From positions 1 through 55,254 of the forward strand of contig JAEEKA010000108.1 in the NCBI GenBank assembly GCA_016282135.1: a stretch of 55,254 nucleotides of DNA, in the 5' to 3' direction. The stretch is from Oscillospiraceae bacterium (GTDB lineage: Bacteria; Bacillota; Clostridia; Oscillospirales; Oscillospiraceae). This document shows, in pieces, positions 42,523-55,254 of the stretch. Position 1 is the stretch's first letter. Each line of letters opens with the position of its first letter. A model generated the notes under the pieces. That model was not told the DNA's origin. It searched no databases and saw only the letters and a program-made list of their open reading frames with translations. Position numbers and translations under genes: made by a program.

Positions 42523-42705
42523 ATGTCTGAAATCAAGGTCAAGGAAAACGAGTCCTTGGAGAACGCGCTCAAGCGCTTCAAGCGGAGCTGCCAGAAGGCG
42601 GGCATCCAGCAGGAAGTTCGTAAGCGTGAGCATTACGTCAGCCCCAGCCTGAAGCGGAAGCAGAAGAGCGAGGCCGCCCGTAAGAACAAGAGAAGAGGCT
42701 ATTGA
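42523..42705 (+). CDS. rpsU: Small ribosomal subunit protein bS21
   Basis: A 60-residue, highly basic protein with the S21 pattern: [24 protein letters not shown], then [26 protein letters not shown]. bS21 sits near the anti-Shine-Dalgarno region of the 30S subunit. ATG 42523 follows GGAGGGAAATCA; the longer frame from 42463 crosses the leader hairpins and is rejected. It stands alone with its own consensus promoter and terminator. Confidence 0.97.
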
Positions 42706-49254: not shown

Positions 49255-49727
49255 CGGCCATCAAAGCCTATCTTCTGCGTCTGATTTTCTGCGGCTTCCT
49301 TGTGAGCCTGTGCTCCGCGCTGCTGCGAGGCAAACGGGCGGGCAGGGCGCTGAAACTTTGCGGGGGCTGTCTGCTGATTCTGACGGCTGTTCGACCGCTG
49401 CTGCGGGTGGATCTGAGTCGTCTGCCGGATCTTGCCACCGGGCTGACCCGCACGGAGCGGGAAGCCGCGGCCCGGGAGAGGAATGACGAGCTTCTCCGGG
49501 GCCTGGTGGAGGAGCAGACCGCCGCCTGGATTGCGGAAAGGGGAAAGGAGCTTGGCATGGAGATCACGGCCTCCGTGACGGCCCGGGAGGCTGAGGCCGG
49601 GACCTTTGTGCCGGATCAGATCAGCCTTCGGGGAAGCTGGACTGCGGAGCAGCGGGAGGCCCTGGTTCTGATTCTGGAACGAGACCTGGACGTTCCGGCG
49701 GCGCGGCAGAGGTGGGTTGGCGGATGA
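49251..49727 (+). CDS. spoIIIAF: Stage III sporulation protein AF
   Basis: A 158-residue protein with two N-terminal membrane helices (AYLLRLIFCGFLVSLCSALL and LKLCGGCLLILTAVRPLLRV) and a soluble ring-building-motif-like domain ending in LVLILERDLDVP. SpoIIIAF forms a ring of the channel. ATG 49251 overlaps the spoIIIAE stop; the much longer open frame upstream from 48807 is read in the wrong frame of spoIIIAE. It overlaps spoIIIAG by 4 nt. Confidence 0.9.
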   Translation: MTAIKAYLLRLIFCGFLVSLCSALLRGKRAGRALKLCGGCLLILTAVRPLLRVDLSRLPDLATGLTRTEREAAARERNDELLRGLVEEQTAAWIAERGKELGMEITASVTAREAEAGTFVPDQISLRGSWTAEQREALVLILERDLDVPAARQRWVGG

Positions 49728-50272
49728 AGAGCTGCAAGGACACTTTGGGGAAGCTTTCCGTTTTCCTGGACCGATATAAATATCCGGCGCTCATTTTGCT
49801 GATCGGGCTCATTCTTGTTACGCTGCCCACCGGCAGGGAGGAGACCGTCCGGCAGACGCCGCCGGAGACCACTCCGGCGGAAAGCCGCCCCGCAGATGAC
49901 GACGAGTACCGCGCCGGGATGGAACGGGAGCTGTCCGCGCTCTTGAGCCAGGTGGAGGGGGCCGGGAAGGTCAAGGTCATGCTGACCCTGAAAACCGGCC
50001 CGGCGGCCTGCTATCTGACCGACCGTTCCGTGAGCTCCAGCCGGGAAGGGGAAAAAGAAAGCCAGTCCTCCGAGGAGCGGACGGTCATGATCGGGCGAGG
50101 AAGCGCATACGATGAACCAGCCGTAGTGAGCACGGCTTACCCGGTCTTTCAGGGGGCCCTGATCGTGGCGGAGGGCGGGGCGGACCCCAGCGTTCGCTAC
50201 CAGCTTTCCGCCGCGGTGTCCGCACTCCTGGGCTTGGGAGCCGATCAAATCACCGTTGTGAAAATGAAGTAA
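49724..50272 (+). CDS. spoIIIAG: Stage III sporulation protein AG
   Basis: A 182-residue protein with one N-terminal span (YPALILLIGLILVTLP), a Pro/Glu-rich linker and a C-terminal ring-building domain (LLSQVEGAGKVKVMLTL, then VFQGALIVAEGGADPSVRYQLSAAVSALLGLGADQITVVKM). SpoIIIAG makes the large 30-fold ring of the feeding tube. ATG 49724 overlaps the spoIIIAF stop and has GAGGTG upstream; a GTG at 49712 is less likely. Confidence 0.93.
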   Translation: MKSCKDTLGKLSVFLDRYKYPALILLIGLILVTLPTGREETVRQTPPETTPAESRPADDDEYRAGMERELSALLSQVEGAGKVKVMLTLKTGPAACYLTDRSVSSSREGEKESQSSEERTVMIGRGSAYDEPAVVSTAYPVFQGALIVAEGGADPSVRYQLSAAVSALLGLGADQITVVKMK

Positions 50273-50284
50273 AGGGGAATGAAT

Positions 50285-50851
50285 ATGAAATCCTGGAAAC
50301 GCAATGCCCTGGTGGCCGCCATTTTGGTTTTCGTCTGCGGAGGCATCTATCTCAACTGGCGCTATGAGGAACGAAATGCCGTGGACCTGGTGTCCACGCT
50401 GGACGCCGAAAAGATTCTGGACGACGCAGCCCTGGTGCTGGCCCCGGCGGAGGACCCGGCGGCCCAGGCGGCGGCGGAGGACGCCGAAAGTGAAAACCAG
50501 ACCGCCGGTCAGATCTTCGCAAAAATGCGTCTGAGCCGGCAGGAGAGCCGGGACAGCGCCGTTCATCTGCTGCAGGAAACGATTTCCTATGCCGGGGAAA
50601 ACGAGGACGTGAGCGCCAGCACGCTCCAACTGGAGGGAATCGTCAAGACGGCGCTGTCCGAGGCCTCCATCGAAAGCCTGATTATTTCCAAGGGCTTTTC
50701 CGACTGCGTTGCCTACATGAAGGAGGATGGAATCGATCTTGCGGTGGCCTCCCAGGGCCTTTCCGAATCCGACGTGGCCCTTCTGACCGACGTAATCCTC
50801 TCTCAGACGGAATATGAGCTGTCGCAGATCAGAATTATTGAAGTAAATTAG
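50285..50851 (+). CDS. spoIIIAH: Stage III sporulation protein AH
   Basis: A 188-residue protein with one N-terminal span (ALVAAILVFVCGGIYLNW), a long acidic linker and the conserved C-terminal ring-building domain (FAKMRLSRQESRDSAVHLLQETI... FSDCVAYMKEDGIDLAVA). SpoIIIAH binds forespore SpoIIQ across the septum. ATG 50285 has AAGGGG at proper spacing; ATG 50279 two codons earlier is possible. It is the last gene of the complete spoIIIA operon. Confidence 0.94.
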   Translation: MKSWKRNALVAAILVFVCGGIYLNWRYEERNAVDLVSTLDAEKILDDAALVLAPAEDPAAQAAAEDAESENQTAGQIFAKMRLSRQESRDSAVHLLQETISYAGENEDVSASTLQLEGIVKTALSEASIESLIISKGFSDCVAYMKEDGIDLAVASQGLSESDVALLTDVILSQTEYELSQIRIIEVN

Positions 50852-50861
50852 AAAAAAGCGG

Positions 50862-50889
50862 TTGCTATTTTTATAATTTGTGATACAAT
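50862..50889 (+). promoter_or_regulatory. Promoter of asp23-nusB operon
   Basis: TTGCTA (50862-50867), a 16-nt spacer and TACAAT (50884-50889) stand 40 nt before the asp23 ATG, so vegetative transcription can start here independently of the sporulation operon. Confidence 0.6.
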
Positions 50890-50929
50890 GGTTAAAACTA
50901 TCGCTTTATGCACAGAAGGAGGAACCAAT

Positions 50930-51262
50930 ATGGCTGAAAATAAGGATTACATGACCAAGGAGCTGGAAAACGGCACGGTCAACATCAACGAGGACGTGCT
51001 GCTGACGGTGGCCTCCGCCGCGGTCAAGGATGTGGAAGGCGTAGTCAGCGGCCGCAGCGACCGCAAGAGCATTCACGTCCTGCTGGGCGAGGATACCGTG
51101 GCAGTGGAGTGCGGCCTCGTGGTGATCTACGGCCACTCGGTTGTGGAGATCGCGAAGAATGTGCAGAACGCTGTGACCAGCGCCATTGAGTCCATGACCG
51201 GTCTCAAGGTCAGCCGGGTGGACGTCAACGTCGTGGGCATTTCCATGGGCAAACAGGGATGA
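50930..51262 (+). CDS. Asp23/Gls24 family envelope stress protein
   Basis: A 110-residue DUF322/Asp23 protein: NGTVNINEDVLLTVASAAVKDVEGVVS, then VECGLVVIYGHSVVEIAKNVQNAVTSAIESMTGLKVSRVDVNVVGI. The family is anchored near the membrane and linked to envelope homeostasis; in Clostridia this gene (YqhY type) typically lies before nusB and close to accBC. GAAGGAGG precedes ATG 50930; the longer frame from 50888 starts inside the promoter. Its stop overlaps nusB by 4 nt. Confidence 0.93.
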   Translation: MAENKDYMTKELENGTVNINEDVLLTVASAAVKDVEGVVSGRSDRKSIHVLLGEDTVAVECGLVVIYGHSVVEIAKNVQNAVTSAIESMTGLKVSRVDVNVVGISMGKQG

Positions 51263-53954: not shown

Positions 53955-54168
53955 GTCCAACATGACCCGCCTGGAAGAAATTGTTCACCGTCTGGAGGAC
54001 GGCTCAGTCCCGCTGGAAGAGGCAATGAAGCTGTTTCAGGAGGGGACTGCCCTGGCCGGGAGCTGCGGCAAGCTGTTGGACGAGGCGGAGCTGGAGATTG
54101 TGAAGCTGACCAAGGGTCCCGACGGGACCATTCAGGAGGTGCCGTTTGACCGTGAAGACCCTTCTTGA
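53926..54168 (+). CDS. xseB: Exodeoxyribonuclease VII small subunit
   Basis: An 80-residue XseB: TFESNMTRLEEIVHRLEDGSVPLEEAMKLFQEGTAL is the family signature, and the C-terminal tail is short. AAGGAGAG precedes ATG 53926, which lies inside the xseA end (29-nt overlap). The last 23 nt overlap ispA. It binds XseA to form the active multimer. Confidence 0.95.
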   Translation: MPKTKSQTFESNMTRLEEIVHRLEDGSVPLEEAMKLFQEGTALAGSCGKLLDEAELEIVKLTKGPDGTIQEVPFDREDPS

Positions 54169-55024
54169 AACCTGGGCGGCCTCCAATCGGCACTTTGACG
54201 CTTTGCTTGCCGGACGCTATTCCGGTCACGGCGAACCCCAGGAGCGGCTGTTTCAGGCCATGGATTACAGCCTCCTGGCGGGAGGAAAACGCTTACGGCC
54301 CTTCCTGGTCTATCAGTTCTGCGCCGCCTGCGGCGGCGAGGAAGCCGACGCCGACCCTGCCGCCCTGGCCATTGAGCTGATCCACACCTACAGCCTGATT
54401 CACGACGATCTGCCCGCCATGGACAATGACGACTATCGCCGGGGCCGCCTGACCAACCACAAGGTCTACGGCGAGGCCATGGCCATTCTGGCGGGGGACG
54501 GTTTGCTGACAGACGCTTTTGCCGTTCTGGGAAGCGCCGGACTGGCTGGGGATCGCGTCGCGGCCTGCGTCCGGGTTTTGGCTGAAAACGCCGGGCCCTG
54601 GGGCATGGTGGGCGGTCAGGTGCTGGATATACTTTCCGAAGAGCGGAAGCTGACGGAGCGGGAGGTTTTGGACATCCAGACCAGAAAGACCGGCGGCCTC
54701 ATCCGGGCAGCCTGCGAAATGGGCGTTATCTGCGCCGGCGGAACCCCGGAACAGCGTTCCGCGGCCCGGCACTACGCCGACGGCGTGGGCCTGGCCTTTC
54801 AGATCCGGGACGACGTGCTGGATGTGATCGGCGACGCTCAAAAGCTCGGCAAAGCTGTTGGCGTGGACGCTGAAAAGAACACCTTTGTCCGGCTTTACGG
54901 CCTGGAGGCTTGTGAGAAACGGATAGAAGCGGAGACAAAAGCAGCCTGCAAGGCCCTACAATCCTTCCCCAATGCCGGAATTCTTGCAGAACTTGCGTTT
55001 TTTCTCGCAAAAAGAGACCGTTGA
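54146..55024 (+). CDS. ispA: Farnesyl diphosphate synthase (polyprenyl synthetase)
   Basis: A 292-residue trans-prenyltransferase: first Asp-rich motif DDLPAMD (Asp87, Asp88, Asp93), with Tyr82 at position -5, which indicates a C15 product in bacterial type II FPPS, GGKRLRPFLVY and KTGGLIRAACEMG, and second Asp-rich motif DDVLD (222-226). It condenses DMAPP/GPP with IPP. TTG 54146 follows GGAGGT at 5 nt spacing, better than GTG 54152. It overlaps xseB by 23 nt. Downstream begins a structured RNA region where dxs would be expected. Confidence 0.94.
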   Translation: MTVKTLLETWAASNRHFDALLAGRYSGHGEPQERLFQAMDYSLLAGGKRLRPFLVYQFCAACGGEEADADPAALAIELIHTYSLIHDDLPAMDNDDYRRGRLTNHKVYGEAMAILAGDGLLTDAFAVLGSAGLAGDRVAACVRVLAENAGPWGMVGGQVLDILSEERKLTEREVLDIQTRKTGGLIRAACEMGVICAGGTPEQRSAARHYADGVGLAFQIRDDVLDVIGDAQKLGKAVGVDAEKNTFVRLYGLEACEKRIEAETKAACKALQSFPNAGILAELAFFLAKRDR

Positions 55025-55080
55025 TTTTTGCACAGTTTTGCCAAAATGTGTAAATTCACTTATTCTGTATATGTTGCCTC

Positions 55081-55109
55081 TTGTATAATTATTAATTCTG
55101 TGCTATACT
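55081..55109 (+). promoter_or_regulatory. Promoter of the right-edge RNA
   Basis: TTGTAT (55081-55086), a 17-nt spacer and TATACT (55104-55109) predict a transcription start near 55116. A second -10-like TATAAT overlaps the -35 at 55084. Confidence 0.7.
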
Positions 55110-55115
55110 GATGAT

Positions 55116-55254
55116 GGTGGCGCTGTATCCTAGTCGGAACCGACGATTACCAGGAAGGGCCTAAAAATCCTTTGAAGGGCATATCGGTGAAGTCCCTGGT
55201 GCTTGCTTGTTTCGCCCAGATTCGGGTGGGTGCTGGGGGTTAAGGTTTCCGGGC
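55116..55254 (+). ncRNA. Putative structured RNA or long leader, family not identified (truncated by window end)
   Basis: From the predicted start to the window end there is no open reading frame with a ribosome binding site, but there are clear helices: GTCG-GAAC-CGAC (55133-55144), a 6-bp stem ACCAGG (55149-55154) with CCTGGT (55195-55200) enclosing AAGGG...TCCTT, and CGCCC (55213-55217) with GGGTG (55224-55228). Hallmarks of 6S, tmRNA, RNase P, SRP, T-box, TPP and cobalamin RNAs were looked for and not found. It could be a free RNA gene or the leader of the next gene, probably dxs from conserved order; that is inference. The 3' end is outside the window. Confidence 0.55.

Follow-up and report, generated by a model that had tools for sequence, protein, structure and literature searches.

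An RNA gene at a contig end of an Oscillospiraceae genome is very probably the 5′ part of ole

The structured RNA at the right edge of the analysed window (the whole stretch of 55,254 nucleotides) is almost certainly the 5′ quarter of an ole gene, with the OLE RNA completed on a second contig of the same genome, C80, and followed there by oapA and dxs. The window is the entire contig C7, and its end is the contig end. The genome assembly comprises 2.5 Mb in 120 contigs and is 85.6% complete.

Identity and extent of the RNA

In the comparison with the Rfam model RF01071 (OLE, Ornate Large Extremophilic), the RNA at the window end matched model positions 1–154 of 616 with 116.9 bits, cut on the 3′ side, and C80 matched positions 35–616 with 407.9 bits (L005 9981–9384, minus strand). 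Both scores exceed the gathering score of 50 bits, which is the threshold for membership in the family, and RF01071 matched in none of the 14 control genomes. The genome-wide OLE search gave one listing, on C80; the 5′ part on C7 was not listed separately. A first-pass annotation had called the RNA unidentified, since none of the common families checked there by their core motifs fitted. This reading fails with the significant Rfam match, an observation which that annotation itself had named as contradicting it. Its suggestion of an independent RNA gene was right, the gene being ole with a full-size OLE over C7 and C80.

The reverse strand of C80 begins with the last 120 bases of the window as an exact overlap. 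C7 alone has the first 34 bases of the OLE match, and C80 alone has the positions after 154. As the joined gene spans two contigs, their adjacency is deduced from this overlap and from base pairing between them. Over the two overlapping contigs the full-length architecture is found (positions 1–616, about 600 nt), and the A-rich loop and the GCCCA loop in the window part and the symmetrical GGCC loop in the C80 part are all retained. Compared to the OLE RNA of RF01071 (H. halodurans; Clostridium acetobutylicum, cryo-EM), the RNA is alike in sequence and structure over the whole model, in its size of about 600 nt, in the gene order ispA-OLE-oapA-dxs, and in these three loops. It differs from the model by small insertions, e.g. 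13 nt in one loop, and its host is no named extremophile. The most similar OLE of the 120 named GTDB loci listed was that of L116, a cattle-duodenum MAG of the Oscillospiraceae (94% over 611 nt). The OLE variants 1 and 2 of the TANB77 and RF39 clades belong to the same RNA class. According to the available part of PMC11332333, their P7–P9 are shortened or P7 and P8 are absent, whereas the OLE studied here aligns over the full model; also, their hosts are largely without OapB and OapC, whereas this genome has OapB. Taken by itself, the window with only 154 of the 616 positions would also fit a degenerate OLE fragment, i.e. a pseudogene ending at the contig end. Such a fragment is extremely improbable and already refuted unless C7 and C80 prove to be non-adjacent, because C80 shares the 120 identical bases and supplies the rest of the model at 407.9 bits, two long-range helices are formed between C7 and C80, and no stop codon interrupts the oapA frame.

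Table 1. Coordinates of the features described, as positions in the window. Paired cells are given for family sequences + other sequences; P1 and P2 are our own labels.
Feature	Position	Strand	Evidence and remarks
rpsU (bS21)	42529..42693	+	PF01165, 75 bits; S21p, 72.4 bits
ispA (farnesyl diphosphate synthase)	54146..55024	+	NCBIfam FPPsyn, 316.5 bits, cut-off 275
-35 hexamer TTGTAT of the putative ole promoter	55081..55086	+	sequence
Putative extended -10, TGC-TATACT (TG 55101–55102, TATACT 55104–55109)	55101..55109	+	sequence
5′ part of OLE RNA, model positions 1–154 of 616	55101..55254	+	RF01071 match; cut at contig end; RNA proper from about 55116
5′ strand of the closing helix (P1)	55116..55121	+	pairs with L005 9404–9399 on the other contig
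5′ strand of a long-range helix (P2; bases 55122–55125 and 55129–55133)	55122..55133	+	pairs with L005 9581–9573
Hairpin with conserved A-rich loop (CUAAAAAU)	55154..55173	+	184/186 + 571/576 cells paired, compensatory changes
Long hairpin with loop GCCCA	55193..55239	+	outer stem 151/155 + 479/480 cells; inner 422/465 + 1333/1440

Conserved helices and local folding

In the joined sequence, bases 16–21 pair with 612–617 in all six positions (P1), and bases 22–25 and 29–33 pair with 440–443 and 435–439 in all nine positions (P2). Covariation was counted over 127 sequences. The family alignment contained 31 of them, this one included, with the best 30 of the 56 family OLE matches taken for alignment, and the other 96 came from a wider set of at least 120 loci, which were picked by a near-consensus pattern and are therefore biased to conserved OLE; 24 of 120 were excluded since their OLE was cut or divergent. 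P1 and P2 were 97–99% paired, with compensatory changes on both sides. For P1, 179/185 cells were paired in the family and 557/570 in the others, with G-C/A-T, T-A/C-G, and C-G/T-A exchanges; for P2 these were 272/279 and 859/864, with C-G/T-A and A-T/T-A exchanges. Slid controls of P2 reached at most 57%. P1 slid by three columns was still paired to 90% (family) and 78% (others), so that P1 is less decisive on the pairing percentage alone. A third, weaker pairing was found for block 43–50/405–412 (78% and 87%, with many exchanges), and block 34–42/414–422 was paired to only 59% and 63%. As the helix search scanned many column pairs, a single high-scoring pair carries no weight here; for the helices given above, pairs were subsequently counted in the same alignment together with slid controls. 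Given this cross-contig pairing about 400–600 nt downstream, the 5′ strand in the window represents largely one half of helices of which the other halves are located on C80. We read the hairpin with the A-rich loop as P4, the dimer contact in the published structures, and the one with the GCCCA loop as P5, the kissing-loop partner in the published dimer (both according to the available part of PMC12265935).

The stem 55149–55154/55195–55200, for which compensatory changes in relatives had been proposed as a check, is a perfect complement in this sequence (ACCAGG/CCUGGU). It failed the covariation test on the 31 family and 96 wider sequences and was rejected as a conserved helix: 66–67% of the cells were paired (125/186 in the family, 378/576 in the others) versus up to 62% in slid controls (slid by one column, 60–62% and 57–61%), and all six pairs were present in 3/31 family sequences, this one included, and in 4/96 others. 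The 5′ base of pair 51/98, the most variable one, does not follow its partner, as G stood opposite G in 43 cases and opposite U in 41. The stem also competes for bases needed by the conserved OLE stem 55193–55197/55235–55239. The perfect complement could represent a short-lived, lineage-specific alternative of the genus and a few neighbours, formed during transcription before the 3′ partners exist. Its poor conservation in relatives argues against such an intermediate, which we consider very unlikely.

A structured RNA of at least 139 nt had been annotated here. A conserved structured RNA indeed starts at this position, yet the folding energy is no better than that of shuffled sequences. The minimum-energy fold of the 139 nt had a z-score of +0.99, with 167 of 200 shuffles at least as stable, and for the 598 nt on C80 z was no lower than −1.15, with 12 of 100 shuffles just as stable. 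The annotated lack of an ORF was confirmed: in 55025–55254, frames of at least 20 aa were all at most 40 aa long, except for one 54-aa minus-strand frame at 54895–55059, which is mostly within ispA. Inside OLE on C80, there is a frame of 119 aa, longer than in 288 of 300 shuffles. Its start codon column was kept in 118 of 126 relatives, and 100 codons were open in none of the 126; it was therefore taken as a chance frame and set aside as a gene.

Promoter, neighbouring genes, and protein partners

The promoter TTGTAT-N17-TATACT described before is present in the sequence, and transcription would start near 55116. The -35 hexamer matches TTGACA in three of six positions, and a generic promoter scan did not list TTGTAT-17-TATACT. 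A promoter-like pattern (TTG, 16–18 nt, -10-like) was found just before the RNA start in 18 of 30 family sequences, while 12 failed; L019 was left out of this count as only 39 upstream bases were available. In shuffled upstream DNA the pattern occurred in 128 of 9000 cases, a contrast that is optimistic because the pattern was drafted after inspection of these sequences. Eleven of the 30, this one included, have exactly TTGTAT with a 17-nt spacer, and 16 of the 18 promoter-like sequences carry TG one base 5′ of the -10 hexamer. The ole gene of H. halodurans is located inside a large operon, has its own promoter, and its RNA is presumably processed (PMC9723947, available part). By analogy, the same combination of operon, own promoter, and processing is likely here.

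The location of the RNA after ispA was correctly annotated, as the stop codon of this FPP synthase family gene is at 55024. On C80, OLE is followed by a frame of 205 or 210 aa (oapA) and then by dxs (TIGR00204, 669.6 bits); OLE, oapA, and dxs in this order are the published OLE neighbourhood. The start of oapA is within 20 nt of the OLE model end, probably the TTG at L005 9366, which is preceded by GAGG. Its product matches CNNM weakly (18.8 bits, E 0.0013), under the Pfam cut-off of 28.4, and weak similarity of the CNNM/DUF21 type is what would be expected for OapA. The oapA stop codon overlaps the dxs start codon by four bases. With this overlap and the same strand, OLE, oapA, and dxs may share one transcript. 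The first-pass annotation had expected dxs as the next gene; dxs is indeed downstream, yet the remainder of the RNA and oapA come first.

It had also considered a 5′ leader of an mRNA, regulating isoprenoid synthesis (dxs) in cis. The position of dxs downstream on the same strand and the oapA/dxs overlap of four bases would suit such a leader. However, the RNA is a full-size OLE of about 600 nt reaching up to oapA; it lies directly upstream of oapA and not of dxs, and oapA separates the two. Also, a gap of about 2.5 kb between OLE and oapA, as present in genome G029, would not easily be tolerated by a leader, and the available parts of the OLE papers mention no isoprenoid phenotype (PMC11332333, PMC9723947, PMC12286853, PMC12054373, PMC12265935). 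The proposal is thus unsupported, and a dxs leader is highly improbable. The link between OLE and dxs is one of shared position and strand.

Further upstream in the window, rpsU is located about 12.4 kb before ole on the same strand. The bS21 orthologue of H. halodurans was reported to bind OLE RNA as a component of the OLE RNP (PMC12054373, available part). The region 49712–51259 upstream of nusB contains a gene resembling stage III sporulation AG (82.7 bits, below the cut-off of 147.7) and frames without an NCBIfam match. Sporulation genes near ole were also reported elsewhere, in line with this AG-like gene (PMC11332333, available part).

A search for the KOW family as a way to find OapB gave nothing in this genome, yet all 14 control genomes matched. 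As this search was uninformative here, the gene was located by its position beside infA. The 96-aa protein encoded just upstream of infA is a homologue of OapB (PDB 7k9b, 'OLE-associated protein B', E 7.3e-7). OapB homologues were found in 135 of 200 family genomes and are thus commoner than OLE; this wider distribution is also described in the available part of PMC11332333. OapC (YbxF) was not found in the 85.6%-complete genome, in which a contig starts inside rpsL and the expected upstream site is off the contig. The only L7Ae-like match in the genome was placed by eye in the nusA-infB cluster. G164, a genome of the same genus, has a gene just upstream of rpsL whose product is a YbxF homologue (E 1.9e-13 to 4lck).

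Distribution of OLE and meaning of the finding

Among 200 genomes of the same family, this one included, OLE was found in 56 and an OapA homologue in 57. All 56 OLE genomes have an OapA homologue, the agreement being obtained by reading the two tables side by side. In the additional OapA genome, G185, the contig stops 166 bases past the match, in the direction in which OLE would be expected. In 142 of 150 other loci (30 of the family and 120 named GTDB loci), an OapA homologue follows OLE on the same strand at a distance of at most 600 nt. For the other eight, one overlaps the OLE end, one is at a distance of 2 kb, four have too little DNA, and two have none. In these two, L107 (Desulfovirgula sp. 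MAG) and L127 (Peptococcaceae MAG), OLE is nearly full length, and neither tblastn nor a profile search detected OapA in the 8-kb locus; oapA was either moved, lost, or is very divergent. In G029 (C28; L193 1960–4001, L171 1–1500), about 2.5 kb are located between OLE and oapA, with a frame which by eye resembles an extracellular solute-binding lipoprotein.

Several draft assemblies break in or near OLE, namely the window (55135–55254), G092, G146, G184, G008, G097, and G141. One possible reason is that the RNA differs little between co-resident species (this OLE is 94% identical to L116 over 611 nt). G184, with OLE in three pieces, was set aside as a case of a broken OLE; since the pieces are collinear and reach the contig end, it was treated as an assembly truncation.

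On mobile DNA, the exact OLE pattern had no match in IMG/VR, and no OLE match was found in 50,697 phage records. Among 72,556 plasmid records there was one match, to pMM59_01 of Pusillibacter faecalis (L199, NZ_AP023421.1 188876–213466), a linear record of 504 kb. Here, OLE-oapA-dxs occurs together with recN, argR, tyrS, and xseA, and the record annotates no gene at the position of OLE. With tyrS, recN, argR, and dxs around the match, the gene content looks chromosomal, and the plasmid label of pMM59_01 may stand for a chromid or for part of the chromosome. In P. faecalis, the ispA-like gene and OLE-oapA-dxs are about 9.7 kb apart, with nucleoside/transport and other genes in between, so that the tie of OLE to ispA is not fixed.

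The identity as OLE is established by the data presented here, and its function in this genome we infer from other species. According to the available parts of PMC12265935, PMC12286853, and PMC11332333, OLE forms dimers via P4 loops and kissing loops and binds OapA. It has been proposed to cross the membrane, and it promotes growth under several kinds of stress. Following OLE of H. halodurans and clostridia, the RNA would be transcribed from its own promoter with a start near 55116; ole may also receive read-through from upstream, the 3′ end then being trimmed. Two OLE copies would dimerise through the A-rich P4 loops and the kissing loops, and the dimer would bind OapA in the membrane, together with OapB, OapC, and bS21. 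Such a complex might help the cell to withstand stresses such as cold, alcohol, excess Mg2+, or a poor carbon source, effects known only from other species.

The RNA is an ordinary, well-supported member of OLE, and no feature distinguishing it from its relatives was seen. OLE is a known class of large, membrane-associated RNAs from many Gram-positive bacteria, and this member leaves the picture unchanged. The lesson is methodological: when a structured RNA sits at a contig end, its sequence is best extended and a covariance-model search run before any local helix is relied on, since a 5′ strand may have its true partners hundreds of bases away on another contig.
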